63,452 bases of DNA from a methane-oxidizing endosymbiont of Gigantopelta aegis. GTDB taxonomy: Bacteria > Pseudomonadota > Gammaproteobacteria > Methylococcales > Methylomonadaceae. Shown here one piece after another: positions 33,018 to 61,509 of this stretch. Made by a program: the position numbers and the translations under genes. Numbering within the stretch: the stretch's first letter is position 1; every line of letters begins with the position of its first letter. The notes under the pieces are model-generated. The model was given only the letters and a program-made list of their open reading frames with translations. It was not told the origin of the DNA and did not search any database. The DNA lies in NCBI RefSeq assembly GCF_016097405.1, contig NZ_JAEHGD010000001.1, positions 1,944,872-2,008,323 on the forward strand, read 5' to 3'.

Positions 33018-33032
33018 TATTTTCGACAATTA

Positions 33033-38536: not shown

Positions 38537-40193
38537 GTTAACAGGTGGAACCGTCTATGATCCCGCAGGCGGTATTGATGGGCAGCGGCAGGATATTTAT
38601 ATTCAGGATGGCCGCATTATCGACAAGCCTGACGAGGGCATGAAGGTCGATAAAGAATATAATTTGAATGGCAAGGTGGTGATGGCCGGTGCGATTGATA
38701 TGCATACGCATATTGGGGGCGGAAAGGGTAACATCGCACGGATTCTGTTACCGGAAGACCATCGCGCCGATCCGGTTATTCGCAGTCAGTTGACCCGTTC
38801 CGGTTGCGGTTATGTTATGCCAAGTACTTATGTGACCGGCTATCGTTATGCCGAGATGGGTTACACCGCTGCCTTTGAACCGGCTGTGTTGCCAGTCAAC
38901 GCCCGTCAGGCGCATATGGAAATGGGCGATATTCCAATTCTTGATAAGGGCGGCTATATCATGATGGGCAGTGATGATTATTTTCTGCGCATGATGACGG
39001 CAAAAAAAGATCAACAGGCAATTAACGATTATGTCGCCTGGACTTTGCGTGCGGCTAAAGGCATTGGGATTAAGGTGGTCAATGCCGGCGGCATTAGTGC
39101 CTTTAAATTCAATCAGCGCAAACTTGATCTGGACGAAAAGAATGCCTATTACAATGTTACCCCTCGTGATGTATTGGTGACTTTGGCGCGAGCGGTCAAG
39201 GAACTGGGGATTCCGCATCCCTTGCATGTTCATGGTTGTAATCTTGGCGTGCCGGGTAATGTTGAAACCACACTGGACACTATTCAGGGGATTGGCGGTC
39301 TGCCAATGCACTTGACCCATATTCAATTTCATAGTTATGGGACAGAAGGGGATTTTAAATTCTCTTCTGGTGCAGCACAGATTGCTGAAGCGATCAATAA
39401 AAACAAGAATATTACAGTTGATGTTGGCCAAATTTTATTTGGTCAGACTGTGACTGCTTCTGGCGATAATATGCGCCAACATGCCAATCATCAGTTTGCC
39501 AGCCCGAATAAATGGGTCTGTATGGATATCGAATGTGATGCCGGTTGTGGTGTTGTACCGTTTAAATACAAAGATCAGAATTTTGTGAATGCCCTGCAAT
39601 GGGCAATTGGCTTGGAAACATTTTTGCTGGTCGATGATCCGTGGCGCATATTCTTGACCACAGATCATCCAAATGGTGCGCCGTTTACCAGCTATCCACA
39701 TTTGATTCGGCTGTTAATGGATAAAAGTTTCCGTAATGACATGTTGGCAACCATTCATCCCGAAGCGCAAAAAATGACGACATTGGCATCCATCGACCGC
39801 GAATATTCCTTGCAGGAAATCGCGATTATGACGCGTGCTGGTGCGGCTAAACTGATTGGGTTACAAGACCGTGGCGGTTTGACGGCCGGAAACTGGGCCG
39901 ATATTACCGTTTACACCGAAAACAGCGACCGCGAAAAAATGTTCGAAAAGCCAGATTATGTGTTTAAAGATGGTGAACTGGTGGTGAAAGACGGTCAGGT
40001 CGTTCATGTCACCTGGGGTACCACACATACCGTATTGCCGGAATATGACGCATCGGTGGAACAGGGCTTAAAAGACTATTTTGATCGTTATATGACTATG
40101 AAACTGGGTAATTTTAAAATCAGCGATGATGAAATCACCGAAGACGGCCGTGGTAGCTTGACCGTTCATCCTTTACAAGGAGGTGCAGTATGA
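38526..40193 (+). CDS. fhcA: Formyltransferase/hydrolase complex subunit FhcA
   Basis: The hydrolase subunit: an amidohydrolase-fold, dinuclear-metal enzyme releasing formate from the formyl cofactor. 555 residues. The metal ligands of the first strand are in GAIDMHTHIGGGKGN (about 60-74); HVHGCNLGVPGN, HLTHIQFHSY and TTDHPNGAPF carry the later His/Asp ligands. It overlaps fhcB and fhcD (ATGA) on both sides. FhcA homologues are FwdA in methanogens. The gene is intact and complete; function follows from its context with fhcB, D and C. Confidence 0.94.
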   Translation: MLIKLTGGTVYDPAGGIDGQRQDIYIQDGRIIDKPDEGMKVDKEYNLNGKVVMAGAIDMHTHIGGGKGNIARILLPEDHRADPVIRSQLTRSGCGYVMPSTYVTGYRYAEMGYTAAFEPAVLPVNARQAHMEMGDIPILDKGGYIMMGSDDYFLRMMTAKKDQQAINDYVAWTLRAAKGIGIKVVNAGGISAFKFNQRKLDLDEKNAYYNVTPRDVLVTLARAVKELGIPHPLHVHGCNLGVPGNVETTLDTIQGIGGLPMHLTHIQFHSYGTEGDFKFSSGAAQIAEAINKNKNITVDVGQILFGQTVTASGDNMRQHANHQFASPNKWVCMDIECDAGCGVVPFKYKDQNFVNALQWAIGLETFLLVDDPWRIFLTTDHPNGAPFTSYPHLIRLLMDKSFRNDMLATIHPEAQKMTTLASIDREYSLQEIAIMTRAGAAKLIGLQDRGGLTAGNWADITVYTENSDREKMFEKPDYVFKDGELVVKDGQVVHVTWGTTHTVLPEYDASVEQGLKDYFDRYMTMKLGNFKISDDEITEDGRGSLTVHPLQGGAV

Positions 40194-41086
40194 TTATTAA
40201 CGGCGTCAGTATCGATAAAACCTTCGCTGAAGCATTTCCGATGAAAGCCACCCGCGCCATTATTACGGCGCAGAATGAAAAATGGGCGATGATTTCGGCT
40301 CAAGCAATGACCGGTTTCGCCACCTCGGTGATCGCCTGCGGCTGTGAGGCTGGTATTGAACGGGTGCTCGACCCTTCTGAAACGCCAGATGGCAGGCCTG
40401 GTGTCGCAATTTTGATTTTCGCTATGGGCGGAAAGGGATTGGCTAAACAGCTCGAAACCCGCGCTGGCCAATGCGTATTGACTTCGCCAACCTCGGCGCT
40501 GTTTGCCGGTATCGAAGAGGGTAAACAGATTCCACTGGGCAAAAATTTGCGCTATTTTGGGGATGGTTTTCAAATTTCCAAGAAAATCAATGGTAAGCGT
40601 TACTGGCGGGTACCGGTGATGGATGGTGAATTTTTGACTGAAGCTACCACCGGGCAAGTTGAAGCTGTCGGCGGTGGTAACTTTCTGGTCTTGGCTGAAT
40701 CGCAGCCGCAGGCACTAGCGGCTTGTGAAGCGGCCATCGAGGAAATGCGTAAAATACCGAATGTCATCATGCCATTTCCGGGAGGTGTTGTGCGTTCCGG
40801 TTCTAAAGTTGGATCGAAATATCCAGCGCTGGGTGCATCGACTAACGATGCATTTTGCCCAACCTTAAAAGGTGTGACCAAAACGGATTTGTCGCCGGAA
40901 ATTGAATCGGTGATGGAAATTGTTATCGACGGTCTGACTAAAGAGGATATTGATAAAGCCATGCGTGTCGGTATTCAGGCGGTTTGTGATTTGGGTGCTG
41001 AAAACGGCATCAAGCGCATCAGTGCCGGTAACTATGGTGGTAAACTCGGCCCGTTTCATTTTCACTTACAGGAGATCATGGCATGA
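40190..41086 (+). CDS. fhcD: Formylmethanofuran-tetrahydromethanopterin formyltransferase (FhcD/Ftr)
   Basis: Transfers the formyl group between tetrahydromethanopterin and the methanofuran-like cofactor, the transferase half of the Fhc complex. The 298-residue length matches Ftr. Conserved family stretches include RAIITAQNEKWAMISAQAMTGFATS near the start, CGCEAGIERVLDPSETPDGRPG and FPGGVVRSGSKVGSKYP. It overlaps fhcA by ATGA and overlaps fhcC at its end (again 4 bases), so the four subunits are made stoichiometrically from one transcript. Confidence 0.95.
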   Translation: MIINGVSIDKTFAEAFPMKATRAIITAQNEKWAMISAQAMTGFATSVIACGCEAGIERVLDPSETPDGRPGVAILIFAMGGKGLAKQLETRAGQCVLTSPTSALFAGIEEGKQIPLGKNLRYFGDGFQISKKINGKRYWRVPVMDGEFLTEATTGQVEAVGGGNFLVLAESQPQALAACEAAIEEMRKIPNVIMPFPGGVVRSGSKVGSKYPALGASTNDAFCPTLKGVTKTDLSPEIESVMEIVIDGLTKEDIDKAMRVGIQAVCDLGAENGIKRISAGNYGGKLGPFHFHLQEIMA

Positions 41087-41895
41087 GCGCATTGACACTG
41101 ACACTCAAAACAAGACCGCGTCAGCATGTGGATATGTCGCCCCTGGTTTGCCAAAAACTGGTGGGGATGACACCGGCTGACATTGCAGCGATTCCATTGC
41201 AAACGGGCAATAAAACCGTTCGTGTTGATGAGTTGTTTAAAATTAAAGGTTCTGACAGTCAGAACCTGGTGATTGCCGGTAGTTTTAACAAGCTCGATTT
41301 TATCGGTAAAGGACTCGATGGCGGAAGTATTACGATTGAAGGCGACTGTGGCGCGTATTTGGCACAAGATATGAAAGCCGGCATGATTCGGATTGATGGT
41401 AATGCTGGCCTGTATGCGGGTTGTGAAATGAAAGACGGCTTGCTAGAAATCAATGGTAATGCTGGGGATTTTGTCGGCGCTGCGTTGCCCGGCAATAAAC
41501 AGGGTATGAAAGGTGGCACTATTCTGGTCAAAGGCAATGTCGGCGCCAGGGCAGGCGACCATATGCGGCGTGGTGTTATTTTGGTGGAAGGAGATGCGGG
41601 TGATTATTGCGGCGCACGCATGGTCGCGGGTACGATTGCTGTCATGGGACAGACTGGCCGCTATTTAGGCTATGCCATGCGGCGTGGGACCTTACTGTTA
41701 TGGCAACAGCCGCAATTGTCGGCAACCTTTAATGATTGTGGCTCGCATACGCTGGCGTTTCTACCCATTTTGTTTTCCTCATTTAAATCGCTTAACAGCC
41801 GTTTTGCCGATAGTGCACAGGCGTTCAATCGTGTGCAACGCTATGGCGGTGACATGGCTGAAACGGGCAAAGGCGAGGTGCTGGTCAGGCTTTAA
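41083..41895 (+). CDS. fhcC: Formyltransferase/hydrolase complex subunit FhcC
   Basis: Structural subunit of Fhc, related to FwdC and to the C-terminal beta-helix domain of glutamate synthase. 270 residues. A run of glycine-rich turns (GNAGLYAGCEMKDGLLEING, GNAGDFVGAALPG, GNVGARAGDHMRRG, GDAGDYCGARMVAG) forms the right-handed beta-helix that docks FhcB and FhcA. Last gene of the operon. About 76 bases follow before the DUF389 gene, containing a short inverted repeat (GGGCGA ... TCGCCC, 41918-41943). Confidence 0.94.
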   Translation: MSALTLTLKTRPRQHVDMSPLVCQKLVGMTPADIAAIPLQTGNKTVRVDELFKIKGSDSQNLVIAGSFNKLDFIGKGLDGGSITIEGDCGAYLAQDMKAGMIRIDGNAGLYAGCEMKDGLLEINGNAGDFVGAALPGNKQGMKGGTILVKGNVGARAGDHMRRGVILVEGDAGDYCGARMVAGTIAVMGQTGRYLGYAMRRGTLLLWQQPQLSATFNDCGSHTLAFLPILFSSFKSLNSRFADSAQAFNRVQRYGGDMAETGKGEVLVRL

Positions 41896-46257: not shown

Positions 46258-49200
46258 ATGCTTGATATTTTCTGGATTATTTTTTGTGCCATTTTAGTGT
46301 TGTTTATGCAGGTTGGTTTTATTTGTCTTGAAACTGGCTTGGTCAGAAGCAAAAACAGTATCAATGTGGCGATAAAAAATCTAATGGATTTTTGTGTGGC
46401 GGGGGCCGTTTATTGGCTGTTTGGCTTTGCTTTGATGTTTGGTGACAGTTGGGCCGGTGTGGTTGGGCATAATTATTTTCTTTTTTCCGCAAGCAACAAC
46501 ACTTTTTTTACTGCATTCTTTTTGTTTCAGCTGATGTTTTGCGGCACAGCCATCACGATTGTGTCTGGAGCAGTCGCTGAACGCATGCGGTTTATGGCGT
46601 ATTTACTGATTGCGTTAATGATGTCAGCAATACTTTATCCGGTCGTGGGGCACTGGGCCTGGGCTGGCAGTCAGCAAAATGAGAAATGGGGGTGGCTGGG
46701 GCAATTGGGATTTATTGATTTTGCAGGATCAACCATCGTGCACTCTGTCGGTGGTTGGTGTGCACTGGCGGCAGTGCTGGTGTTAGGTCCTAGAATCGGG
46801 CGTTTTGAACACGGCAAAATCGCCGGCAGTAATTTGGCTTTATCGGTCGTCGGCGTGTTATTGCTTTGGATTGGCTGGTTTGGCTTTAATGGTGGTAGTG
46901 CGCTGGCGTTAAATCAGCAAGTACCCAACATTTTATTGAATACCTTGTTAGCCGCTTTATGGGGCGGCTTGACCGGAGTGGTTTTATCGGGTGTGACACA
47001 AAAGCAGATTCATATTCTGGATGGTATCAATGGTGTATTAGCAGGGCTGGTGGCGATTACCGCATCCTGCCATCTGGTTTCCGCCATTGCCGCAATGATT
47101 ATCGGCATGGGTGGCAGTATATTGACCTTTTATGGCGATAGATTGCTGGAAAAACTCAAGATAGATGATGCGGTTGGTGCAATTCCCGTGCATCTGTTTG
47201 CAGGGATCTGGGGGACATTGGCATTTCCTTTTTTCAGTGACCCGGCAAGTTGGTCAACCGGGTTAAATTTAGCGCAACAATTTTTCGTCCAGTTGATCGG
47301 GGTTATTTGTATTGGTGCTTATGTTTTTATTTGTAGTTATTTTCTGCTGCGCTTACTTAACCGTTTTTATCCATTACGCGTGTCGGTAAACGATGAGCAA
47401 GAAGGATTGAATATAGCTGAACATGGTGCGATGACTGAAATTCATGATTTGATGAATGCCATGCTGGCACAAGAAAAATCGGGAAACTTCGATCAGCCGG
47501 TAACTGTAGAACCTTTTACCGAATCGGGTCTGATTGCACAACAATATAACAAAGTCCTGGCGCGGGTTAAACAGGAAATCGGTATTCGTGAAGAAGCGAT
47601 TAAAGCCTTTCAAAATAGTGAATCTCGTAAAGATGCTATTCTTGATTCAGCTTTAGACAGTATCGTTAGTATTGATGCCGAGGGTAATATTCAGGAATTT
47701 AATCCTGCTGCGGAAAAATGTTTTGGAGTTGGTCAAGAAGTGGTTTGGCAACAAAATTTTATTGAACTGTTTTTACCTGAGCGACTACGGGCTGCATTTA
47801 GAAAAAGTCTGGAAAATGAATTTTCCGAAAAGGGTCAATGGCTATTGAATCATCGCAATCAGACCGTTTTATTGCGTTTACATCATCAAGAATTCGATGC
47901 CGAATTAAGCATTACCAAGGTGGCAGATAAACACAATGGCAAAAAAGAATTTACCTTTCATATCCGTGACATTACCCGACAGTTGGTGCTTCAAGACCGC
48001 TTGAAACACCTCGCCTACTACGACAGCCTGACCGGGCTGAGTAACCGGAGTTATTTTATTAGTAAATTAAACTATGAAATGCAGCGAGCCAGGAAACAGC
48101 AGCAAGGGTTGATGCTGATGTTTTTGGACTTAGATGGTTTCAAGGCGATTAATGATTCATTAGGTCATGATATTGGTGATCAAGTGTTATGCCATGTTAC
48201 CCAGAAACTTAAGGAGATTGTTCGAGAGGATGATTTTATTTGTCGCTGGGGAGGTGATGAGTTCATTATCTTGTTCTGTGGCGTGGAAAGCCGACAATTT
48301 ATCACCCAGCGAGCGCAGAAAATTATTGAAGAATTTAGAGCGCCTTTTGAAGTTGAAAATGAACGCTTGGTGATTCGGGTCAGTATTGGCATTGCTGATT
48401 CGAAAAACGGCCAGGTTTCGGCCGATCAATTGATTCAAAATGCTGATATGGCCATGTATGAAGCGAAAAGGCTGGGGAAAAACCAATACTGCTTTTTTTA
48501 TAAGGCATTAAAGGACAGTAGTAACCTTCGCTTTGAATATCAGGCTGCACTCAACCAGGCTCTCGAACAACAACAGTTTTTTATTGAGTATCAGCCAAAG
48601 ATTAACAAGAGTCAGGAAAATACCGTAGGCTTTGAAGCCTTGTTGCGTTGGCGTCATCCTGAGAAAGGCATGGTGTCACCCGCTGATTTTATTCCTATTC
48701 TGGAGGAAACTGGCCAAATCAGTCAGGTGACTTTTTGGATTCTGGATACTGTTTGCCATCAGATTCAAGCTTGGCAACAACAAGGCTTGATCGTGCCGCC
48801 TGTGGCTGTCAACCTGTCGGGAAAAGACTTTCTCCATCCAGATTTATACCATCAGGTAGCCGGTTGTTTACGGCGCTATCAATTATCCGGCGACATGTTA
48901 GAGTTGGAAATTACTGAATCTATTTTGGCAACTAATGTGGATATTTGTATCAAGCAGATGCAAAAGCTTAAAAAACTGGGGATAGAGTTTTCTATTGATG
49001 ATTTTGGAACTGGATACTCATCAATGAGCTATCTAAAAAAATTCCCATTGGACAAATTGAAAATCGATCGTTCTTTTGTCAGTGAATGCGACACTAACAA
49101 GGAAGATGCCGCTATTTGCCAGGCTATTGTTTCCCTGGCCCAAAGCCTGGGATTAAGCGTTATTGCTGAAGGTGTGGAGCTGACGACACAGGTGGACTTT

Positions 49201-49287
49201 CTGTTTGAGTCGGGCTGTCATGTTTATCAAGGCTATTTATTCAGCCGGCCCTTATCGGCTGAAGCTGTGGAACAATGGCTTGCCTAA
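46258..49287 (+). CDS. Ammonium transporter-PAS-GGDEF-EAL fusion
   Basis: A 1009-residue membrane protein coupling an ammonium transporter to c-di-GMP enzymes. Residues 1-370 are an Amt domain with about 11 TM helices and the twin pore histidines at H162 (TIVHSVGG) and H312 (IPVHLFAG), spaced 150 residues as in AmtB. A linker and coiled region (385-455) leads to a PAS domain (about 460-570), a GGDEF domain (575-740) with GGDEF intact at 665-669 and an RxxD inhibitory site (656-659). An EAL domain (about 750-1005) follows with EAL at 793-795, ESILAT, DDFGTGYSS and KIDRSFV. Both enzyme sites look active. I infer that it senses ammonium (or transports it) and adjusts c-di-GMP. There is no GlnK gene next to it. 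Confidence 0.93.
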   Translation: MLDIFWIIFCAILVLFMQVGFICLETGLVRSKNSINVAIKNLMDFCVAGAVYWLFGFALMFGDSWAGVVGHNYFLFSASNNTFFTAFFLFQLMFCGTAITIVSGAVAERMRFMAYLLIALMMSAILYPVVGHWAWAGSQQNEKWGWLGQLGFIDFAGSTIVHSVGGWCALAAVLVLGPRIGRFEHGKIAGSNLALSVVGVLLLWIGWFGFNGGSALALNQQVPNILLNTLLAALWGGLTGVVLSGVTQKQIHILDGINGVLAGLVAITASCHLVSAIAAMIIGMGGSILTFYGDRLLEKLKIDDAVGAIPVHLFAGIWGTLAFPFFSDPASWSTGLNLAQQFFVQLIGVICIGAYVFICSYFLLRLLNRFYPLRVSVNDEQEGLNIAEHGAMTEIHDLMNAMLAQEKSGNFDQPVTVEPFTESGLIAQQYNKVLARVKQEIGIREEAIKAFQNSESRKDAILDSALDSIVSIDAEGNIQEFNPAAEKCFGVGQEVVWQQNFIELFLPERLRAAFRKSLENEFSEKGQWLLNHRNQTVLLRLHHQEFDAELSITKVADKHNGKKEFTFHIRDITRQLVLQDRLKHLAYYDSLTGLSNRSYFISKLNYEMQRARKQQQGLMLMFLDLDGFKAINDSLGHDIGDQVLCHVTQKLKEIVREDDFICRWGGDEFIILFCGVESRQFITQRAQKIIEEFRAPFEVENERLVIRVSIGIADSKNGQVSADQLIQNADMAMYEAKRLGKNQYCFFYKALKDSSNLRFEYQAALNQALEQQQFFIEYQPKINKSQENTVGFEALLRWRHPEKGMVSPADFIPILEETGQISQVTFWILDTVCHQIQAWQQQGLIVPPVAVNLSGKDFLHPDLYHQVAGCLRRYQLSGDMLELEITESILATNVDICIKQMQKLKKLGIEFSIDDFGTGYSSMSYLKKFPLDKLKIDRSFVSECDTNKEDAAICQAIVSLAQSLGLSVIAEGVELTTQVDFLFESGCHVYQGYLFSRPLSAEAVEQWLA

Positions 49288-49361: not shown

Positions 49362-50621
49362 CTAATGTGGAGTATGTTGAGGTATTTGCCACTGCAGCGG
49401 GTGTTTTTCGGTGATTTGTTTTAGGTATGCGGTCATTTTTTCAGCCAACAGCTTTTGTTTAACTCGGTCTTTGACGGCATTATAGTTTTTCTGTTCGGCG
49501 GGTTTGCGATCGACGATGGTGATGATATGCCAGCCTTTTTTGGTTTTGATAATCGGACTGATTTCGTCATTTTTAAGCTGTTTCAACGCGGCTTCAATTT
49601 CTGGGCTGCCGCTGCCTTCTGTCAGCCAGCCCATGTCACCGGAGCGTTGGCGGCCATAAGGGTCTACGCTGTAAAGTCCAGCTAAGGTGAATAGACTTTC
49701 ACCATTCATAATGCGTTGCCGAATTTCTTCGGCTTGTTTCTGGCTGGCGAGGACAATTTGGCCAATCTGACGGCGTTCTGGAATATAGCCGATTTTGGGG
49801 TGTTGTTGAAAATAATCGAGCAGCACCTGTTCGTCTGGTATCCACTGTTGTTCTTGTTGGGCCAGTAATAGACGGATAGCGAGGTTATGCGCGTAGTCTT
49901 GTAATTGATTATCCAGTGAGATGCCGTCGGCTTGTGCGGCTTTTGCCATTAAAATCAGCTCTATCCATTGTTCAACTTTTTGTTTGATGCGGGCATTGTC
50001 AACCGAGATCGCGGTATTGGGCACAAAGTCACCGTAATGGATTTTAAAGCCTTTGCCTTCAGCGAGTACGGTATCAGCTTGTGCGTTATCAAGATGGTCA
50101 AAATAGGTTTTGACATTCGCTTGTTGGCGCAAGGCGTTGAGTTTTTCGGTTTTGAGTGCGTTAAAGCGTTTGGCGATATAGGCCGAACGGGCGGCTTTTA
50201 AGGCGTCGCTGTTGTTTTGGGTGTTTTGTTCCAGTTGTTGCGCAATATCATCAGGCACCTGAATGGATTTTCCGAGCTTGAGTAGATAGCGTTGTGCCAA
50301 CAGACTGGTTTTAAAATTGCTCATTTCCTGTTTAAAAACATCTGACTCAGGAATTTTTTGTGTCAGGGCTTCCTGATATAAGGCTTCGGCTTGAGCTAAG
50401 CGTAACAGCATATCACCGCGTAAATAGGCTTGGTCTTTTTCATCCAGGCTGGGAAATTGTGTGGCGAAAGGGGCCGCTTTCATGGCGGCTTCCAGTTGCT
50501 GGTCGGTGACCTGTCCGGCCTGTCCTATCGTGACCAGGATGGTTTCAGCCATTGCCGTAGAGCAAAGGCTAGCGCTCAGCAAAAAGGTTGTTAAGTATTT
50601 TTTTATCATCATTTTTAGCAT
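49362..50621 (-). CDS. Periplasmic PpiC/SurA-like peptidyl-prolyl isomerase
   Basis: 419 residues. A signal peptide (about 1-25, ending TAMA) precedes a helical N-terminal SurA-like chaperone region (about 30-265). One parvulin-type rotamase domain follows (about 270-365; RQIGQIVLASQKQAEEI, SGDMGWL, ISPIIKTKKGWHIITI). It may help fold exported c-type cytochromes: it is the last gene on the same strand as the multiheme-cytochrome gene (65 bases apart, with a terminator between). PpiD and SurA have two or different domain arrangements, so this is a single-domain relative. Confidence 0.85.
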   Translation of the reverse strand: MLKMMIKKYLTTFLLSASLCSTAMAETILVTIGQAGQVTDQQLEAAMKAAPFATQFPSLDEKDQAYLRGDMLLRLAQAEALYQEALTQKIPESDVFKQEMSNFKTSLLAQRYLLKLGKSIQVPDDIAQQLEQNTQNNSDALKAARSAYIAKRFNALKTEKLNALRQQANVKTYFDHLDNAQADTVLAEGKGFKIHYGDFVPNTAISVDNARIKQKVEQWIELILMAKAAQADGISLDNQLQDYAHNLAIRLLLAQQEQQWIPDEQVLLDYFQQHPKIGYIPERRQIGQIVLASQKQAEEIRQRIMNGESLFTLAGLYSVDPYGRQRSGDMGWLTEGSGSPEIEAALKQLKNDEISPIIKTKKGWHIITIVDRKPAEQKNYNAVKDRVKQKLLAEKMTAYLKQITEKHPLQWQIPQHTPH

Positions 50622-50676: not shown

Positions 50677-52960
50677 GAGAAGATGATTAATGCAGATTTT
50701 TGCCACCTAAGTCATGGGCATTGCCATGAATCCAGGTGATCGCTGCGTCGAGATCATCCTTGATTTTTTTGCCTTTCCAGGTCAAGGCTTCAGCAACCAG
50801 TGGTACACCCGATTTGTTGACTTCATGACACGAAGCGCACAGCAGAGGCCCATGACTGCCATCAGGGTTGTATTGCGCGGCTTGCTTGTAAGTGGTGGTA
50901 TCAACGTCAGGTGTGACCGGATACAAGCCATGAATCGATTCATGGCAGGCCTGACAGGCTAAACCGGCATGACCTTTAGAGTAACGCATCAGACTGTATT
51001 TACCCGGTTGGTTGATTGGAAAGGCAACCCCGCCTTGGCCTTCGACAAAGGGGGCTTCATGGCAGTCAGCACAATGCGGCGAGCCTGGAGACAGCCAGTA
51101 GTCACGTCCATCCGTTGCCGCGCTATAAGGTACAGCAGTAATGCCGGTGGCATCTTTCGGCAAATCCAGCTCCGACAGAATGGCGGTTGGATTGGCTGAC
51201 AAGATGACAACATTGGCATCACCATCTTCATCTTTACGAATTAACGGTTGCCCGTCTTTAGTGGCGATGACAGCAATATCGGGTGTCATCCGTTTTTTCG
51301 ACCAGGTGAGTAAAATACCGGATTTTCCGGGTGTGTCGTGGCCTTTTTCATCCAAGACAACTTTAGGGTCCAGATATTTATTGATCAGTGTTTCGCTATC
51401 GACGCCAAGCGCTAAAGCAATCTTGTCCAGTGGCAAATTACGAATCGTTTCGCCGGTTTGCTGAAAGGCATTGATCAAATTGTCGCGTTGATACAATTCC
51501 CGTGACAACTGATTATGACAGTTAGTGCACCACATGCCTTTGCCACCTTCACCGTTGCCGATTTTGGAAACATTGGCTTGCATCCATTTGCCGATGGCAT
51601 TCAAATGCTCTGGCGTCCCGACGCCGTCTTTGTCTTTGTTAGGATTGGAATGGACATCCCGACCTGCGAAACAGCCGCCCTCAGTGTCACGATTATCAGC
51701 TTGGGCATAGGTGTTTTGACCGTCTGGCGTAATCGGATAACCATCCATGCTGCCATCTTGTCTATGAGCCGGGTGACAGCCCGCGCAGGTGCCAGTACGA
51801 CCTTTAGAATCAGGCAGAGGCCTCATGGTTTGGTGTACGCGGTGTAAAGCCTCGGATAAGGCGACGATAGGTGTATCCCAAGACTCACGTTTTTTACTGC
51901 CACTGAGTACCTGGGCAATGCCTTTTGATTGTAAAACGCCGATCACATTGTCGGCATGACATTGTTGGCACAGTACCGGGTCGCTGCCCAGGCGGTTTTG
52001 GGTTGAGCGACTGGTTGGGTCGTATTTGGCCAGAAATTGCGTGCCATGACGGGCATCGTGGATTTGCAGGATGGAAATGGAGGTCGCTTTCAGATTAGCC
52101 ATATATTCGCTGGCACCGAGGCTTTTCCAGAATGTTTTTTCCTGTTTATATAAAGTGAAGGTGTCGCCGTTGGCATTCTCATTAGAATGGCAGTTTGCAC
52201 AGTTGGGAACATCGATGGGATTGGTGCCGATAAATTTAATGGGTTTCCCGGTATGGCTGTCGATAACCGGTTTGCCGCTTTTAGCATCGACCAAGCCCAC
52301 CCAGGCCTCCTGGTAAGGGCGGATATCGCTTTCCACGATTTCCAAAGGGCTTTTTTTCATCAATTCATCATAAAATGGCGTCAGTGGCAAACCGAGTGCA
52401 TCCCAGATGCCGGGATTGGTGAGTACGATAGGCACGTTATCCAGCACCGATGATTTGGTATAAACGATGGTGCCGGTATCGCCGGTATAGTGTAAATGGC
52501 CATTTTTTAAGGGTTGTCCGGAAGGGCCGGCGTCGCGTGGAATCGGTAGTTCAATACCAATCCGTAATTTTTCGCTGTCTTTACTGGTATGTTTCGGGTT
52601 GCTGCCTTTCAGGTCTTTGTAGATATAAAGATGGGTGAAATAAGCATTGCCAACATTTTCATTATCGCTGTATTTACCATCTTTATTGACGTCATAAGGA
52701 ATATTCCAATAGGCCAGTTTGGTCCCTTCAGAAAAGGTATTGTCGATATGGCCATATTCCAGTTTCATGCGTTTATTCCCATCCACCAGAACGGTCGGGT
52801 CATTCGGGTCGGCTTTTAAAAGCTGTGGAAAATCGTAAGGACTGCGAGCTGTTTTAACGACCTGGCTCTGGATTGAGTTATACGGTGGCAGGATACAGCA
52901 GTAGGAAAAGTCAAACCCCGTACAATGCATGCCCAGCTCGTAATTGATGGTAATGTTATA

Positions 52961-53692
52961 GGGGCTGTTGCCATTTCACATAGGTAACCATAAAAAGGCG
53001 CAAGCCAGAGCGATAGAGCCTTCAAAATTTCGTTTGAGTTTGTCATATCGCGTGGCGATCGCTCTGAAATGCTTAAGTCTTGCAAACACATTTTCAACGA
53101 GATGGCGATATTTGTAGAGACACCAATCCATTTCATCATTTCCCCGAGTTGAATTCTTTTTCTTGGGATAACAGGAACAGCCCTTTGTCTTTAATTTGAA
53201 GACGTAATGCTTCACTGTCATAGCCTCTGTCAGCAACTATATAGTCACCTTTTGGGAGCTCTGCAACTAATTTCGGTGCTTCTTTACAGTCATGAACTTC
53301 GCCGCCTGTCACTGAGAAATGAATAGGAAGACCACAGGCATCAACGGCCATATGAATTTTACTGGTGTTCCCGGCGACAGATTTCCCTATCGCTGTTTCT
53401 TGTTCACAGGCCGCACCACTACTATGCTGATGTGCTTTCACAATACTCCCATCAATAAATTCCCATTCCAGGTCTGGATCAACAACCAAGGCGTTAAAAA
53501 TACCCATCAGTTTTTCTTTACGAGACCAGTCATTGAATCGTTTATATACCGCATTCCAATTACCAAAAGCCGTGGGTAAATCTCTCCAGGGACAACCTAC
53601 TCGCAAGCGATAAAAAATACCTTCGACTGTTTTTCGAAGACAAGGTTTGTCATAAATATTTCAAGGGGGATTTTCAAAACGGCAACAGCCCC
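52961..53692 (-). mobile_element. IS427-type element, copy 2, decayed
   Basis: 732 bp, ends GGGGCTGTTGCC / GGCAACAGCCCC, with TA at 52959-52960 and 53693-53694. It is near-identical to copy 1 but has a deeper 5' deletion (about 120 bases lost relative to copy 3; the sequence jumps from TTGAAAT to ATTTATGAC). It carries the same five-A run as copy 1. It interrupts the multiheme cytochrome gene after codon 60 or so. Confidence 0.88.
52976..53640 (-). pseudogene. IS427-type transposase, copy 2
   Basis: Readable from RVGCPWRDLPTAFGNWNAVY in one frame through the catalytic Asp region (DGSIVKAHQ) to LFLLSQEKEFNSGK, then in another frame as GNDEMDWCLYKYRHLVENVF to FLWLPM. The N-terminal helix-turn-helix region and start codon are deleted. 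Two frames and a missing start mean no functional transposase. The ends are intact, so the copy could still move with help from copy 3. Confidence 0.8.
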
Positions 53693-53884
53693 TAGTCATT
53701 TTAGGTTTTTGTTTTTGATCGGTAATATTTTCAACCGGCCCGTTACGAATCAGGTTAAACATTTCCTGCGGATTTTTTGTTCCGCCTGTTGATTATCTGG
53801 CCGGTATGGAACAATACGCGCTAAGCCTGTTTGACTGAGCAACAAGCTGGCTACAAGAAGATATAAAGTACGGGGCTGCATGAT

Positions 53885-54533
53885 CTACCTCCTGAGTTGG
53901 TAATAATAGTGTGCTAATTGACGAATGTCCTCGTCGCTTAACTGTTCTGCAATCAAGCGCATACGGGCGTATACGTCGTTATGACGTGCGCCATTTTTGT
54001 ATTCTTTAAGGGTGGCTATAAAATAGCCGGGGTTTTGACCAGATAATGCTGGAATATCTTGTTTTTCTCCTTGACCCTGGCTGCCATGGCAAGTAAAGCA
54101 GGGTGGAATGATTTTTTGCCATTGCCCCGTGTCACCAGTATTTCGGCTTGTTTTAGAGTGGTTTTGTTATCGGCCTTATTCTCAGGCGCTGGCAAGGATG
54201 CGAACCAGGCTGCAATGTCGGCAGAGTCTTGTTCAGATAAGCCGGCAGCGACGGAATTCATCAACATATGGGTGCGTTTACCATCAGCATAATCACGCAG
54301 CTGTTTGTAGGTATAAGTTGCTAATTGACCGGCTAGCGAAGGATAGCTGTCCATTGGGCTGATACCATTTTCGCCGTGACAACCTGCACAGGTTTGTGCC
54401 AGTTGTTTGCCTTTTTGGGCATCGCCTTGTTTGATAAATTCCAGCAATTCTGGCGTCCATGCGATATTCGTGGATGGCTCGGCCATACCGTAAACAGGGG
54501 CGAGCACTAACAGTAAGCTTAAAAATATTTCAT
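53885..54533 (-). pseudogene. Di-heme cytochrome c4-type protein (frameshifted)
   Basis: Electron carrier of the c4 type (two similar class-I heme domains), usually shuttling electrons to a terminal oxidase. The ATG at 54533 starts a signal peptide whose frame breaks at a T-run (54521-54525; one T restores MKYF-SLLLVLAPVYGMAEP). The first heme is in TCAGCHGENG, the second in PPCFTCHGSQGQGE, which lies in another frame after a loss near 54140. Repairing both gives a two-heme protein of about 215 residues ending YYYQLRR. The stop overlaps the Shine-Dalgarno of the multiheme gene; the start overlaps the oxidase stop region. Part of the ruined oxidase operon. Confidence 0.8.
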
Positions 54534-55140
54534 ATCAATACCCCCAGGCGCTTGAGTCGTAAGTATCCATCAGGAAGAACTGCAGGATCGGAAAGCCAAA
54601 GCTGATTAACATCAACACAGCAATGACTTTATTCCAGAGTTTAATGTCATTCAGATATTCAGGTACTGACGCTGAAGGGTGCAGGGCTTCGGCGTATTCA
54701 ACCGGTTGTTCATATACCTCTGTGGATGAACTAAACTGTGTTTTGAACAAGATATAAATAAATAAGCATGCTGAGGCTAATAGAACCATGCCGCCAAAAT
54801 CATCGCGATCTCATAAGGTTTCCACGATAAAGTCAGTAAGTTGTTGTAAACAACCGTCGAAATCCGGCGGGGTTGGCCGAGTAAGCCCAAAATATGCCAA
54901 GGTGTCGTCAGGATGCTCATACCGATGAACCAAGTCCATAGTTGCAATAATGTCAATTTGTTGGAGAACAAAGGTTTTTAGTCAATATCGGCCAGATGTA
55001 ATAAGCAATAGCAAAATACATGATGACGGTAGTACCGGCAAAAATAAGATGGAAGTGGCCCGGAACCCAAGCCGTATTATGGATCATCGCATTCATGGCG
55101 TAACTGGCATTAATAATGCCGCCAAAACCACCAAAAATTA

Positions 55141-55990
55141 GGGGCTGTTGCCGTTTTGAAAATCCCCTTGAAATTCAATAACTCCGCCACATAGATTGTT
55201 TATTTTGACTCAAAAACAAGCAAACTATGCCGCGACAACTGCTTACGGATGAACTTTGGGAGAAACTGAAGATAATTATGTTGAAAATGGGAATTTATGA
55301 CAAACCTTGTCTTCGAAAAACAGTCGAAGGTATTTTTTATCGCTTGCGAGTAGGTTGTCCCTGGAGAGATTTACCCACGGCTTTTGGTAATTGGAATGCG
55401 GTATATAAACGATTCAATGACTGGTCTCGTAAAGAAAAACTGATGGGTATTTTTAACGCCTTGGTTGTTGATCCAGACCTGGAATGGGAATTTATTGATG
55501 GGAGTATTGTGAAAGCACATCAGCATAGTAGTGGTGCGGCCTGTGAACAAGAAACAGCGATAGGGAAATCTGTCGCCGGGAACACCAGTAAAATTCATAT
55601 GGCCGTTGATGCCTGTGGTCTTCCTATTCATTTCTCAGTGACAGGCGGCGAAGTTCATGACTGTAAAGAAGCACCGAAATTAGTTGCAGAGCTCCCAAAA
55701 GGTGACTATATAGTTGCTGACAGAGGCTATGACAGTGAAGCATTACGTCTTCAAATTAAAGACAAAGGGCTGTTCCTGTTATCCCAAGAAAAAAGAATTC
55801 AACTCGGGGAAATGATGAAATGGATTGGTGTCTCTACAAATATCGCCATCTCGTTGAAAATGTGTTTGCAAGACTTAAGCATTTCAGAGCGATCGCCACG
55901 CGATATGACAAACTCAAACGAAATTTTGAAGGCTCTATCGCTCTGGCTTGCGCCTTTTTATGGTTACCTATGTGAAATGGCAACAGCCCC
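55141..55990 (+). mobile_element. IS427-type element, copy 3 (fullest copy)
   Basis: 850 bp, ends GGGGCTGTTGCC / GGCAACAGCCCC, flanked by TA (55139-55140, 55991-55992). It has the complete 5' leader and start codon that copies 1 and 2 lack. It is inserted in oxidase subunit I, in the orientation opposite to that gene. Confidence 0.9.
55227..55975 (+). CDS. IS427-type transposase, two-frame (probably -1 frameshifting)
   Basis: DDE transposase of the IS5 family, IS427 type. The first frame starts MPRQLLTDELWEKLKI (55227) with a helix-turn-helix-like N-terminus, then RVGCPWRDLPTAFG and the first catalytic Asp in DGSIVKAHQHS and GDYIVADRGYDS. The second frame, -1 relative to the first, carries the final part: VIPRKKNSTRGNDEMDWC, YRHLVENVFARLKHFRAIATRYDKL and FLWLPM. 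A run of six A (55789-55794) in the overlap allows -1 slippage, as is known for several IS5-group elements. Without slippage the first frame runs on into flanking DNA. This is the only copy with a start codon, so it is the probable source of activity. Confidence 0.78.
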
Positions 55991-56586
55991 TAGCATCAGT
56001 AACGACAAAATAGTCGCGAGAACCATGGGATTAGTCCACGGCAGGGTACCAATCCAGCCAAATATGCCTTTACCACCTCTAAGACGCCCTGCAATTTCTA
56101 ATGCGGCGATGACGGTAAAGCCTGTGAGCAATGTCGGTGTAGAGACGATGAAGGTGCCGACCATATGCAATAATTTCCAACCCTTAGCTTGCTCAGGATC
56201 CATATATAAATGATGGAAACCGATAGGCAGACTGAATACAACCAGCACAATGAAGGCAACTCGGGCGGCTTCGTCACTGAATAGGTAAGATCCTGCCTGT
56301 TTAGGCACGAATACATAAAAGGCCGTGTAAGCTGGAATCAGCCAAAAATAAACGATAGGGTGTAAGGTCCAGGCAAAAGTGTGCGCGCGAGTCCAACGTC
56401 GATAGTGTCAGTCAGCCCTAATGCCCACGGTAATATTAAAAGACCGATTCCAGTGCAACACCCGCGCTAGTCCATAGCCAGAGCATGGCATTGAATGTGG
56501 TGGCAAACATGGCTAATGGTACTGTCTTGTCAGGGTTTTCTTGTTTCCATTGCAAGAACATGACAATCATGATCGCACACCAGACC

Positions 56587-57788
56587 AGGGCAATCGGGTT
56601 TAAAAAAGGGTTGAAATTATAATTTAGATAAGGTATTGGTTTTATCATTTTGATTATAAATGACAGTTACCCCAACGGCCTCAATTATCCACCATTTTTC
56701 AACGATTGCTGATCCAAGAGTAGATCGGCGAAAGAAGCATCAACTCACTGATATATTTTTCATCACCTTGTGTGCGACTATTTGTGGAGCCGATAACTGG
56801 GTGGCCATTGAAAAATTTGGAAGGCTAAAGAAAGCTGGTTCACTGAACAGCTTGGTTTAGAAAATGGAATCCTTCACATGATACGTTGGGTGCTGTTTTT
56901 GCCGCCATAGATACGGAACAATTTAGTCAATGCTTCTCAAACTGGGTGGCCGATCTAGCGGACTTGGTTGAAGAAGAAGATATTATTGCAATGGATGGCA
57001 AATGCTTAAGGCGCAGTATTGATAAAGCCTCAAATAAGTCAGCCATCTATATGGTGAGCGCCTGGTCGCGGAAAAACAGTTTGGTTTTAGGTCAGGCGAA
57101 AGTGGATGATAAATCCAATGAAATTACGGCCATACCCAAACTTCTGTCGCGTTTGGATATTGCAGGCGCTTTGATTACAATTGATGCAATGGGGTGCCAA
57201 AAGAAAATAGCCAAACAGATTATCGACCAAGGCGGTGACTATGTTTTGAGTTTAAAAGGAAATCATGGCACCTTACATGAGGATGTAAAGGCCTATTTTA
57301 CATCCGCTTTATCGCCAGAAATTGCCACAAAAACCGTCAATGGTGAGCATGGGCGAATTGAAACGCGTTCTGTTCGTGTCACGGATGAGATTGAATGGTT
57401 AAAAAGGAGCATTCCTGGTCAGGATTAAAAAGTATTATTGCCGTCACAGCCACAAGAGAAGTGGATGAAAAAATAACCGAGGAAACACGCTATTTTATAA
57501 GCAGTTTAAGCGCAAACGATCCAAACAAGTTAGAGCATGCTGTTCGCGCTCATTGGGCGATTGAAAATAACTTGCATTGGGTTCTTGATCTTGCTTTTGA
57601 TGAGGATAGCAACCGAACCCGCAAAGGATATAGTGCTTCAAACTTAGCTGTCATTCGACACATGGCCTTAAATTTAATAAAAGCCGAGGAAACGGCCAAA
57701 GTCGGTGTAAAAACCAAGCGAATGATGGCAGGGTGGGATAATGATTATTTACTCAAGATTCTTGGTGTAATTTAAACCCGATTGCCCT
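56587..57788 (+). mobile_element. ISAs1-family element in oxidase subunit I
   Basis: 1202 bp with perfect 18-base terminal inverted repeats (AGGGCAATCGGGTTTAAA and its inverse). A 12-base direct repeat, GCACACCAGACC, flanks it (56575-56586 and 57789-57800). ISAs1 elements usually duplicate 8-10 bases, so 12 is long or includes chance matches. The insertion splits the codons VWCA of the ba3 oxidase subunit I gene. Confidence 0.92.
56660..57775 (+). pseudogene. ISAs1-family transposase (three frameshifts)
   Basis: Reads from ATG at 56660 (ASIIHHFSTIADPRVDRRKK, HQLTDIFFITLCATICGAD) through a catalytic core (IIAMDGKCLRRSIDKAS, ITIDAMGCQKKIAKQI, GGDYVLSLKGNHGTL) to the C-terminal RAHWAIENNLHWVLDLAFDE and ends KILGVI at 57775. 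Three one-base losses (near 56821, 56871 and 57401, in A- or C-runs) split it into three frames. Repair of each restores one reading frame of about 372 codons. ISAs1 transposases (H-repeat-associated) of this length are single-ORF, so the copy is inactive. Confidence 0.85.
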
Positions 57789-58214
57789 GCACACCAGACC
57801 CAGGAGCCGACAATCAATAAGGTTGCTCCGAGATAAAATAAATGATGGGCCTGAACCGGTGGATAAAACGTATAAAGCACGGATGCTTTACCGGTTAATA
57901 ACGGAATGGCGGCTAATACGGTGCCGAACAGACTGAGCCAGAAACCGCCCCAGGCCAGGCCAGGATTCCAGATTGGTTTGTTTAAGGCAGTGTGGGCGGT
58001 AAAATAACCAAATCCCATGATAAAAAATGTCGTCAGTACATAGGCCATTAATACGCCATGGGTACTCACTGACGCAAAATAAACGGATGGCGAGCTTAAA
58101 GAGTCAAACAAACCACTGCGTTCTAGGACTTGAAACTCGCCCATAAAGCAGGCCAGGATGAACGCAATAAAAGCAACGGACATGTTGCCCAGTGCCAGTT
58201 TTCGAACAGTATTA

Positions 58215-58745
58215 TCAATCATTGTTTTGGCCTCCTTTCGAAGCGGAATGTTGGGCGAGCCATTGTTCTTTTTCGACGACTTTAATGCGGCTCCACATTT
58301 GATCATGGCCGAGTCCACAATATTCATTACATAACACCGGATAATCCCCCGGTGTTGGAAATGATGTTTCAACTTCGGCGACGAAGCCGGGGACAACCAT
58401 GGTGCTCATGTTGGTCATCGGGATATGGACGCCATGCAAAACATCCATGCTGACCCAGCGAAACGTCAGCTTCGTTTCAGCCGGAACCACAATTTCTTTC
58501 GGGAAGAACGAATAACGTCCGGCCACCATGCGCACAACAATATTTCCTTTATCATCGGTATTGACACCGAGCTTGTCTTCGGCAAACTCCTGGCTCAAAT
58601 GCAGTTTTGTTGAGTCTATAGTTTCGACATTACTCGGTGCATTCACGCTATGGAACAGTGCTTCAAACAGAATGATGCCAACAAAAAATGCACAGATGAC
58701 AAGGATAATCTGGCCCCATTTTTTTTCGAGCGGATCAATATGCAT
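58215..58745 (-). CDS. ba3-type cytochrome c oxidase subunit II (CuA)
   Basis: 176-residue membrane-anchored subunit II. One N-terminal TM helix (about 14-32) is followed by a cupredoxin domain with an intact CuA site: the first His in VLHGVHIPM, then CNEYCGLGHDQM with both Cys, His and Met. The short length with a single TM is typical of ba3 (type B) oxidases rather than aa3. It overlaps the subunit I start by 8 bases. Unlike subunit I, the frame is intact, so it may be recently orphaned. CuA without its subunit I partner cannot work as an oxidase. Confidence 0.9.
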   Translation of the reverse strand: MHIDPLEKKWGQIILVICAFFVGIILFEALFHSVNAPSNVETIDSTKLHLSQEFAEDKLGVNTDDKGNIVVRMVAGRYSFFPKEIVVPAETKLTFRWVSMDVLHGVHIPMTNMSTMVVPGFVAEVETSFPTPGDYPVLCNEYCGLGHDQMWSRIKVVEKEQWLAQHSASKGGQNND

Positions 58746-58754
58746 GGTATCCCC

Positions 58755-58907
58755 CTAATTGACAATTCCGCGTGGAATAAAGACGCCGTAATAAAGGAAT
58801 AACCAGCCGATAACCATGCTGATACCTACGGTTAGCATCAGTATCCACGTACCAATCGGTTTTCCGTTTAGAATCTTTTTGCGTTCTTCTTCAGTTAAGT
58901 CGGGCAT
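58755..58907 (-). CDS. Small ba3-oxidase-associated membrane subunit
   Basis: A 50-residue protein just upstream of subunit II on the same strand. It reads MPDLTEEERKKILNGKP, then a hydrophobic helix of about 20 residues (WILMLTVGISMVIGWLFLYY) and ends GIVN. AGGAGG lies 6 bases before the ATG. A one-TM accessory subunit (subunit IIa) is known in ba3-type oxidases and matches in size and position. The gene is intact. It begins the operon that continues with subunits II and I, cytochrome c4 and the multiheme cytochrome. Confidence 0.75.
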   Translation of the reverse strand: MPDLTEEERKKILNGKPIGTWILMLTVGISMVIGWLFLYYGVFIPRGIVN

Positions 58908-59181: not shown

Positions 59182-61509
59182 ATGATAAAGAAACCTATGA
59201 AAAAGCTACAAAACTTTATACCACTTATAGGTCTGTTGTCGGCAGGGCCGCTTGCTTATGCAGAAGAACAGGCGGTTCAGTTGGAGAAAATGGAAATAGT
59301 TGGCGTAACGCCCTTGCAAGGCTCAGGCATAGGGATTGATAAAGTGCCTGTTCCGGTGCAAAAAATAACCGCTGAACAACTTGAACAATCACAAAGCCTG
59401 TCGTTAGCCGATTATATGAATCGTTATCTAGGCAGTGTCAATATCAATGATGCCCAGAACAATCCCTTTCAACCCGATGTGCAATTTAGAGGCTATACGG
59501 CCTCCCCCCTCATGGGTTTGCCTCAGGGTTTGTCTGTTTATATGAACAGTATTCGAGTCAATGAAGTTTTTGGCGATACCGTTCATTGGGATTTAATTCC
59601 TGAAGGCGCGATTGATACAATGACTTTACAATCAGGCTCAAATCCAGCTTTTGGTTTGAATACACTCGGTGGTGCCATTGCGGTAAAAACCAAAACCGGC
59701 TTCAGTGCACCGGGCCATCACCTGGAAGTCAGTGGGGGTTCCTGGGGACGACATTCTGAAGAAATCACTTCAGGCTGGAACAATGGTGAATTCGGTGTTT
59801 TTCTGAATGCACGCTATTTTAATGAGGATGGCTGGCGTGATTTTTCTGACAGTGAAGTGATGCAGGGGTTTGCAGCACTGAGCTGGCGTGGTGCTGAGTC
59901 TAGCCTGGATTTGACCTTGCTTTCGACCGACAATGATTTAAAAGGCAATGGTACGATTCCAGTTGAATTGCTCAGAGTGCGGCGCGATGCGGTTTTTACC
60001 CATCCTGATCAAACTATCAACCGTTTGTTTATGGCCTCACTCGATGGGGCGACTAGCCTGAATGAGCATATTGAATTATCCGGCAATATGTATTTCAGGC
60101 GCTTGAAGACCAATAGTCTGAATGGTGATGGCAGTGAATTTCAAGAGTGTGCCAGGCTTGTATGTGATGAAGATGGCGCGCAAGTTCTTGATCTGGCAGG
60201 AAGCACAATTCCATGGGGTGATAATGTAGATGGTGGTACCTACAACTCATCAACGACCATTCAGCGTTCGTTTGGATTTTCATTGCAGTCGGCCTTTGAT
60301 TATAAAATCTTGGATCGTGAAAATCACTTCATTGTCGGTGCCGCTTACAGCCAAGGCAATGTGCATTATTCTGCCGATACTGAATTAGGCGCATTAAATG
60401 CGCAGCGCGGCGTTGATGGTTCGGGAATAAAAACCGAGGAAGCGCATGTGCGGCTGAATACAGAAACCGAAAATTACAGCCTTTATTTTAGTGAAACCTT
60501 TTCGGCGACCGATAAACTTAACCTGACTGTGGCCGGTCGTTATAACCAGACCAGTGTCAAGTTATTGGATCAGGCCGGTACTGAATTGAATGGCTACCAT
60601 GTGTTTCAACGCTTCAATCCTTCAGCCGGCTTGACCTATGTTTTTAGACCTGAAGTTAGCTTTTATGGTAATTATAGCGAGTCTACCCGCGCGCCGACAC
60701 CGATGGAATTAAGCTGTTCTGACCCTGATGCACCATGTAAACTGCCTAATGCGTTTGTGTCTGATCCCCCGTTGAAACAAGTGGTCGCACATACCTTTGA
60801 AACCGGTTTTCGCGGAGAATTTGGCCATTTTCTGGACGGTACTTTGAATTGGCGCGCCGGTGTCTTTAGAACCGAAAATGAAAATGACATTCTGTTCAAA
60901 AGTACTGGCGGCGTTGTCGCTAACACCGGTTATTTTGATAATGTTGGTAAAACCCGTCATCAAGGTATTGAGTTGGGTATTTTCGGCGATGCGTTTGATA
61001 GGTTACGCTATTCAGCAAATTACACCTATATGGAAGCGACGTTTCGTACACCGTTTAAGGTCAACAGCCCATCACATCCTGCAGCGGATGCGAATGGCGA
61101 TATTCAAGTGGAGCAGGGTGATTTTATTCCCGGTATTCCACGACAAATGTTTAAAGTGGCGCTGGATTATGATGTGATTAAAGGGATGACTTATTTAGAC
61201 CGCTGGACCATGGGGACGGATGTAATTTATAACGGTTCACAATACTTGCGGGGAGACGAGAGTAATCAAGGCAGTAAGTTAAATGCTTATGCCGTGGTCA
61301 ATCTCAGAACAGAGTTCCAGTTTAATCCACATATTACTTTGTTTGCCAGGGTAACCAACCTGTTTGATACCCAATATAAAAACTTTGGTCAATATGCCAA
61401 TACGGGCGATGTTTTGACCGATGCGTTAGGAATCAGTGATCGGGATACTCAGTTTGTCGGTATCGGCGCACCTAGAGCGGGATGGGTAGGCGTACGTTTG
61501 AGTTTGTAA
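59182..61509 (+). CDS. TonB-dependent outer-membrane receptor
   Basis: 775 residues, imports a scarce compound (siderophore, metal complex, cobalamin or sugar) across the outer membrane. Signal peptide about 6-29 (ending AYAEEQ); an alternative start at 59197 removes five residues. A TonB-box-like MEIVGVTP follows near 37-44, then the plug domain (about 50-165; ITAEQLEQSQSLSLADYMNR, RGYTASPLMGLPQGLSVYM, NTLGGAIAVKTK) and the 22-strand barrel, ending with the C-terminal aromatic/basic pattern GWVGVRLSL. Ligand cannot be predicted. It is divergent from the ba3 oxidase operon, so a copper- or iron-related role is possible but is inference. Confidence 0.92.
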   Translation: MIKKPMKKLQNFIPLIGLLSAGPLAYAEEQAVQLEKMEIVGVTPLQGSGIGIDKVPVPVQKITAEQLEQSQSLSLADYMNRYLGSVNINDAQNNPFQPDVQFRGYTASPLMGLPQGLSVYMNSIRVNEVFGDTVHWDLIPEGAIDTMTLQSGSNPAFGLNTLGGAIAVKTKTGFSAPGHHLEVSGGSWGRHSEEITSGWNNGEFGVFLNARYFNEDGWRDFSDSEVMQGFAALSWRGAESSLDLTLLSTDNDLKGNGTIPVELLRVRRDAVFTHPDQTINRLFMASLDGATSLNEHIELSGNMYFRRLKTNSLNGDGSEFQECARLVCDEDGAQVLDLAGSTIPWGDNVDGGTYNSSTTIQRSFGFSLQSAFDYKILDRENHFIVGAAYSQGNVHYSADTELGALNAQRGVDGSGIKTEEAHVRLNTETENYSLYFSETFSATDKLNLTVAGRYNQTSVKLLDQAGTELNGYHVFQRFNPSAGLTYVFRPEVSFYGNYSESTRAPTPMELSCSDPDAPCKLPNAFVSDPPLKQVVAHTFETGFRGEFGHFLDGTLNWRAGVFRTENENDILFKSTGGVVANTGYFDNVGKTRHQGIELGIFGDAFDRLRYSANYTYMEATFRTPFKVNSPSHPAADANGDIQVEQGDFIPGIPRQMFKVALDYDVIKGMTYLDRWTMGTDVIYNGSQYLRGDESNQGSKLNAYAVVNLRTEFQFNPHITLFARVTNLFDTQYKNFGQYANTGDVLTDALGISDRDTQFVGIGAPRAGWVGVRLSL

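Follow-up and report, generated by a model that had tools for sequence, protein, structure and literature searches.

Insertion sequences in the ba3-type oxidase cassette of a methane-oxidizing Gigantopelta aegis endosymbiont and the heptaheme cytochrome encoded beside it

Has the methane-oxidizing endosymbiont of Gigantopelta aegis lost a respiratory branch, and if so, by what means and how recently? The question is raised by a minus-strand gene cassette in a stretch of 63,452 nucleotides (the window; contig NZ_JAEHGD010000001.1, positions 1,944,872 to 2,008,323), in which a 50-residue membrane subunit, a subunit II with a CuA site, subunit I of a ba3-type oxidase, a diheme cytochrome c4 and a heptaheme cytochrome are encoded in this order. 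Three insertion sequences (ISs) interrupt the cassette. The best overall explanation, in which we have reasonable confidence, is that an accessory branch composed of ba3 oxidase, cytochrome c4, heptaheme cytochrome and a PpiC-type isomerase was broken by three recent ISs, and that further one-base deletions in the same genes are probably errors of the consensus. The relevant features, in window coordinates, are:

58755 to 58907, minus strand: small membrane subunit of the oxidase, 50 amino acids; intact, frame read, homologue at the same position in loci L027-L034 and L103
58215 to 58745, minus strand: subunit II of the ba3 oxidase, bearing a CuA motif, 176 amino acids; intact, Pfam COX2 PF00116
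54535 to 58222, minus strand: gene for ba3 oxidase subunit I, interrupted by an ISAs1 element and by IS427-type copy 3; four single bases apparently missing
56586 to 57789, transposase on the plus strand: ISAs1-family IS, NCBIfam NF033564, with 19-bp perfect inverted ends and a 10-bp direct duplication
55139 to 55992, plus strand: IS5/IS427-type copy 3 including TA duplications (element 55141-55990), IS5-type transposase, TA/TA flanks
53885 to 54533, minus strand: diheme cytochrome c4 gene, two CxxCH motifs, two apparent one-base deletions, no IS; intact in L027
50687 to 53881, minus strand: heptaheme cytochrome c gene, cut by IS copy 2 after the N-terminal ~60 codons
52959 to 53694, minus strand: IS5/IS427-type copy 2 including TA duplications (element 52961-53692), internally deleted, TA/TA flanks
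49362 to 50621, minus strand: PpiC-type peptidylprolyl isomerase, 419 amino acids; intact, Pfam Rotamase, zero frameshifts against L027
53695 to 56585, no strand (2036 bp with IS copy 3 excluded): stretch to which the eight apparent one-base deletions are confined; its consensus is probably of low quality

An initial annotation, made from the letters alone, had already proposed this gene order, the strand and the three inserts, and all of these are borne out by the reading frames, the IS ends and the target duplications. For the ISAs1 element the location (56587-57788) holds, while each end was off by one base; the limits given for the two IS427-type elements required no correction. NCBIfam profiles of the IS5 and ISAs1 transposase families are both matched above cut-off, the two IS5-type transposases reaching 178.5 and 152.6 bits against NF033580 (cut-off 110). 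ISAs1-family elements duplicate 8-10 bp of their target, and the element found here agrees with the family in its transposase, its inverted ends and the size of its duplication. Its transposase frame is in pieces, perhaps as a result of consensus errors. The IS427 group of the IS5 family is characterized by an IS5-type transposase and a TA target duplication; both characters are present, and it is to them, not to the name IS427 itself, that the test applies. IS copy 2 has lost ~118 bp from the 5' part of its transposase gene. The junction of this deletion occurs once in the genome at no more than one mismatch, so there is no sign that copy 2 is a spreading deleted derivative. A further IS427-type copy in the window (33031-33782) carries a different internal deletion from that of copy 2 (52959-53694), and both deletions begin at the same point, close to one end of the element and immediately internal to its inverted repeat.

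It could be argued that the ISs are present in part of the population only, or were misplaced by the assembler, and that the operon works in other cells. Repeats hamper the assembly of this genome (2.93 Mb, 10 contigs). IS427-type elements, for which 40 of 122 candidates from a first look were scored, account for at least 40 nearly complete and almost identical copies, and ISAs1 elements for 13 near-full ones, the one in the window included. In addition, the consensus is poor exactly at the cassette. However, duplications of the expected size were found at all three inserts (10 bp, TA and TA), and the pieces of the cassette are arranged and spaced as in the sister locus. The initial annotation had named a second intact oxidase copy with identical flanks as a sign of misassembly; no second intact ba3 copy was found in the assembled contigs of this genome. 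We consider incomplete or misplaced insertions quite unlikely, and the ISs look both real and recent as judged from the assembled DNA.

The interrupted genes can be identified by means of the sister with an intact cassette, L027. Its subunit I matches that of the Thermus thermophilus ba3 oxidase (PDB entry 4n4y and others) across its length (E 6e-119) and shares the stretches HPIVYFWL, GFHH and PGHFHL with it; the subunit I pieces from the window match the same protein. Heme and CuB histidine stretches and full-length homology (both on L027) together with a subunit II that bears a CuA site are those of a B-family oxidase, which confirms the type assigned previously, while a complete, open subunit I gene is missing from the window because two ISs lie inside it. 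Subunit II scores 34.2 bits against COX2 (cut-off 22) and has zero frameshifts relative to L027; CNEYCGLGHDQM, which we take to be the CuA motif, is directly legible in it. The small extra membrane subunit is presumably another likeness to the Thermus enzyme. In contrast to the latter, the cassette described here is linked to cytochrome c4 and a heptaheme cytochrome, and it is broken by ISs.

Excision of the ISs had been expected to restore the genes. Both junction peptides indeed re-form, but eight single bases are still missing in comparison with L027. Subunit I has been split twice by recently transposed ISs, and a third has severed the heptaheme gene from its signal peptide. The remaining heptaheme frame comprises 747 amino acids with seven CxxCH motifs and has no signal peptide. 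Since subunit I is split and the heptaheme frame is devoid of its signal, neither gene can give rise to a working membrane or exported protein, as the sequence of this assembly shows. The genes for subunit II, the small subunit and PpiC stay open. The c4 gene is probably open too, since the single bases missing from it most likely reflect errors of the consensus.

Subunit I is open in all five other genomes of the genus that were compared and broken in the endosymbiont only. We regard the insertions as recent because of this distribution, because amino-acid changes specific to one lineage are not clearly in excess, and because the IS copies are nearly identical throughout the genome; the recent loss suggested by the initial annotation is therefore upheld. 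The heptaheme protein of L027 is 97% identical to the frame in the window, and the order of genes in the cassette is shared by L028-L034 and L103, among them Methylobacter marinus A45 (L033), a relative with an intact cassette. Among 61 genomes, the endosymbiont included, 37 have a match to ba3 subunit I at E≤1e-60.

Are the eight one-base deletions genuine? They emerge from the alignment with an intact relative, a check that had been proposed beforehand and in which the order of the cassette matched. Four are located in subunit I, two in c4 and two in the heptaheme N-terminus upstream of IS copy 2. Each one is located at a run of A or T in the window, there are zero insertions, and all lie in the 2036 bp between the ISAs1 element and IS copy 2 (inner part), while the 3391 bp outside (outer part) contain none (P=4e-4 if uniformly distributed). 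The ratio of nonsynonymous to synonymous substitution rates (dN/dS) relative to L027 is 0.036 in the inner and 0.037 in the outer part of subunit I, 0.039 in subunit II, 0.028 in the outer heptaheme part, 0.069 in c4, 0.115 in the small subunit (50 codons) and 0.317 in the heptaheme N-terminus (63 codons, mostly signal peptide). Lineage-specific amino-acid changes are balanced, with 16 derived in the window and 15 in the sister; this polarised count leaves aside 72 unassignable codons (51 ambiguous, 21 classed as neither) among the 103 changed. Two of the 16, which adjoin deletions, are probably effects of the alignment, and the sole stop codon met in the comparison adjoins a deletion as well. 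Moreover, 12 ISAs1 copies of the genome differ from one another by no substitution and by 34 indel letters, four of these at one end of one copy (the 13th, with a large deletion, was set aside). The IS427-type family is less telling than ISAs1 in this respect, as 30 copies show 53 substitutions (six in one copy only) and 49 indels (nine in one copy only). We read the eight deletions as probable sequencing errors in the consensus, given that amino-acid changes show no clear surplus and that nothing but indels separates the ISAs1 copies.

Alternatively, the deletions are real and the operon has been decaying by slippage since the ISs landed, which would make it a somewhat older pseudogene cluster. 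Several observations weigh for this alternative and against an origin by error. True pseudogene decay can likewise start by slippage at runs, and genes that have been cut are free to decay; the deletions sit in or beside such genes, while no one-base deletions were seen in ppiC, subunit II and the 3' part of the heptaheme gene. Total dN/dS is higher in the inner (0.062) than in the outer part (0.034), a gap carried by c4 and the short heptaheme N-terminus, and changes derived in the window exceed those derived in the sister in the inner part (10 against 6; 6 against 9 in the outer part). Neither are IS neighbourhoods generally rich in errors: six pieces from L151 and L153, which also contain ISs, gave four events over 18533 coding bases (one spanning 34 bp, two separated by just 7 bp), and L153 and most of L151 are clean. 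On the other hand, the deletions, one base at A/T runs in eight of eight cases, are crowded into 2036 of 5427 bp, though the outer heptaheme frame is equally free to decay, and the balanced changes, the position of the sole stop and the indel-only pattern of the ISAs1 copies do not point to decay either. We therefore hold genuine decay to be improbable, though less so than a misplacement of the ISs.

The comparison of IS neighbourhoods covered L151, L152 and L153 of the five stretches L151-L155, and an IS3-like stretch with a frame broken as judged by eye (L151, 14103-15567) stands outside all counts. Beside another IS pair of the same genome (L152, on contig C3) five compared pieces, 7961 coding bases in all, contain nine one-base frameshifting indels. 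Errors thus come in local patches, since L152 is rich in them and L151 and L153 are nearly clean. The inner part of the cassette is the densest stretch compared, with eight deletions in 2033 coding bases. Such a patch may have arisen when a gap was filled with unpolished long reads. Among the frameshifted genes beside the IS pair of L152 (3000-9500), one resembles an rRNA methyltransferase by eye and another an NAD-glutamate dehydrogenase. The deletions and their probable origin, the intact ppiC gene and the literature on sulfide (PMC10205796) had been missed by the initial annotation.

With the ba3 branch broken, oxygen respiration would fall to an A-type and a bd oxidase, both of which are present and open in the genome. 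The former is aa3/caa3-like with a CxxCH motif in its subunit II; like a cNOR that is also present, it was named from sequence and neighbours. A COX1 match considered as a second ba3 oxidase (contig C2, 602987-604291) reads as this type of reductase by its own sequence, including what we take to be the glutamate motif of NorB, and by a neighbouring gene with one CxxCH. A pmoA-type gene is present in the genome. In the window, a gene run at 37259-41895 (plus strand), read by eye, resembles formylmethanofuran dehydrogenase/transferase genes of C1 oxidation, consistent with a methylotroph.

Which role did the heptaheme cytochrome play beside the oxidase? A family scan found 128 encoding stretches, and the best 80 of these 128 loci are 58-97% identical to the frame in the window, with Methylococcaceae and Methylobacter first among the named relatives. 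Exactly seven CxxCH motifs are present in all 68 sequences scored at full length, and 67 of the 68 translated genes have a mass of 83-93 kDa (signal peptide counted, hemes not); L100, with a stop and a doubtful start, was excluded from alignment and tree. A strict lipobox pattern, which misses some apparent lipoboxes, was found in 21 of 68 and in none of L027-L034 or L103. NCBIfam returned no match for the heptaheme protein at E≤0.001, and a PDB search with the single sequence none at E≤1; two short profile matches to PDB entries (E 0.039 and 0.35) were taken as chance. The AlphaFold model is poor (mean predicted local distance difference test score 60.8), and Foldseek found no PDB structure similar to it at E≤0.001 (best E 0.16). 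The frame in the window weakly matches the Pfam domain II/IV of MtrC/MtrF (31.9 bits, cut-off 30), and this domain and Cytochrome_C7 are both found at E≤0.01 in all 38 aligned relatives. MtrC and MtrF are outer-membrane cytochromes with ten hemes, anchored as surface lipoproteins. The protein discussed here does not fit this decaheme type, as it differs by its seven hemes, its PpiC partner and the lack of any PDB sequence match of weight.

The usual companion of the family is PpiC. A same-strand PpiC gene lies downstream in 59 of the 66 loci with more than 1.3 kb of downstream sequence, and the pair occurs in Pseudomonadota, Nitrospinota and Bacteroidota. Of 58 loci with over 3.3 kb of upstream sequence, 11 have ba3 subunits I and II on that side, namely nine Methylococcales, L053 and L090. 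In L053, L090 and L069, ba3 subunit I and c4 are separated from the heptaheme gene by a copper-ATPase-type gene, an arrangement outside Methylococcales, and in L073 the ba3 genes lie 5-7 kb downstream on the opposite strand. Hence, the heptaheme protein is not specific to the oxidase as far as its gene neighbourhoods go. The initial annotation had read the gene order as a path from the multiheme protein to c4 and then to ba3. The order allows this in the present family, but PpiC is the usual partner, ba3 the occasional one, and a congener (G003) has ba3 and c4 without a heptaheme match.

An electron transfer from the heptaheme protein to c4 and on to ba3 is a putative path read from gene order, and the heptaheme protein may instead serve a substrate or pathway of its own, its position behind ba3 and c4 being incidental. 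We lean away from this alternative, yet give it more weight than any other discussed here. Besides the rare linkage to ba3 and the case of G003, it is favoured by other neighbours of the gene, which are NapC/NirT tetraheme and c4 genes (for instance in L042, L064 and L070), NrfD in Nitrospinota and NiFe hydrogenase in L049 and L106, and by five genomes of family f6 in which ba3 and heptaheme genes are both present and not joined in cassette order. L064 and L070 also carry genes that we take to be sat and aprA. It is opposed by family f1, where the closest heptaheme copy adjoins ba3 in all nine genomes with a strong heptaheme match (own included), and by the nine ba3-linked Methylococcales sequences, which form one clade (SH-aLRT 100 in a quick tree of 67). 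In addition, ba3 is present in 14 of the 15 genomes with a strong heptaheme match (E≤1e-100; 61 genomes, own included), a co-occurrence with Fisher P=0.0025, uncorrected for kinship. One genome, G005, has further heptaheme paralogs elsewhere (49-55%).

The uninterrupted branch most likely passed electrons from the periplasm, by way of the heptaheme cytochrome and c4, to ba3 and on to oxygen during oxygen limitation, sulfide stress or both. Low-oxygen and/or sulfide-tolerant respiration is its most likely role, because published expression data from other methanotrophs and the gene neighbourhoods point in this direction. In the excerpted text of PMC10205796, sulfide induces the ba3 oxidase of Methylacidiphilum fumariolicum SolV ~5-fold and an 89-kDa heptahaem cytochrome c (MFUM_v2_1950) 15-fold, the most raised gene, and its authors propose that the oxidase is sulfide-insensitive and the heptahaem protein an electron carrier. 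The family described here has a similar mass. Two points weaken this parallel: the locus numbers given there (1257-61 and 1950) place the ba3 operon and the heptahaem gene apart, and MFUM_v2_1950 is likened to our family by heme number, mass and company alone. No Methylacidiphilum record is present among the best 80 of the 128 heptaheme loci. The earlier idea of a branch that tolerates low oxygen fits the parts of PMC5652258 and PMC6474228 consulted, which report that ba3 genes increase under oxygen limitation and that sponge methanotroph symbionts are without a high-affinity ba3 oxidase, respectively. As far as the excerpt of PMC12211021 goes, sulfide effects are reported for Methylobacter and no oxidase is mentioned. 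Among open-licence articles in PubMed Central (PMC), no paper was found that joins a ba3-type cytochrome, a multiheme cytochrome and a methanotroph, or that ties together NapC, multiheme, PpiC and sulfur; for heptaheme, sulfide and methanotroph, a heptaheme protein was not shown among the matches listed. A heptahaem cytochrome and sulfide occur together in a single article of this collection.

Two further genes flank the cassette. A TonB-dependent receptor is encoded divergently at 59182-61509 (plus strand), where L027 has a frame of similar length and the same direction. A frame of 1009 amino acids at 46258-49287 (plus strand), read by eye, opens with a membrane part resembling an ammonium transporter and continues into PAS/GGDEF/EAL-like signalling regions. 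No RNA family reached its gathering score in the window between 48000 and 60000.

The recent loss of an accessory ba3 branch through ISs is ordinary in kind, as is the inactivation of accessory oxidases by ISs among IS-rich genomes generally. Similar IS expansion that breaks genes is known from other methane-oxidising symbionts, as far as the available excerpts go: a Methyloprofundus has caa3, b(o/a)3 and bd oxidases, and IS loads are massive in two endosymbiont genomes (PMC8788690), genes of a mussel symbiont are broken by ISs (PMC10652631), and the sponge symbionts lacking ba3 were mentioned above (PMC6474228). Frameshifts adjoining IS clusters in assemblies may be consensus errors, which should serve as a warning. 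More tentatively, the heptaheme protein and PpiC may constitute a widespread electron-transfer module of sulfur- and methane-oxidisers, which one methanotroph lineage would have joined to c4 and ba3 as a sulfide-tolerant, high-affinity branch and which the lineage of the endosymbiont, in an IS burst, would just have discarded. The heptaheme cytochrome is a well-conserved respiratory protein without assigned function, and its pairing with PpiC is the part worth following. The intact cassette of relatives such as Methylobacter marinus A45 provides a testable case for methanotroph respiration under sulfide or low oxygen.

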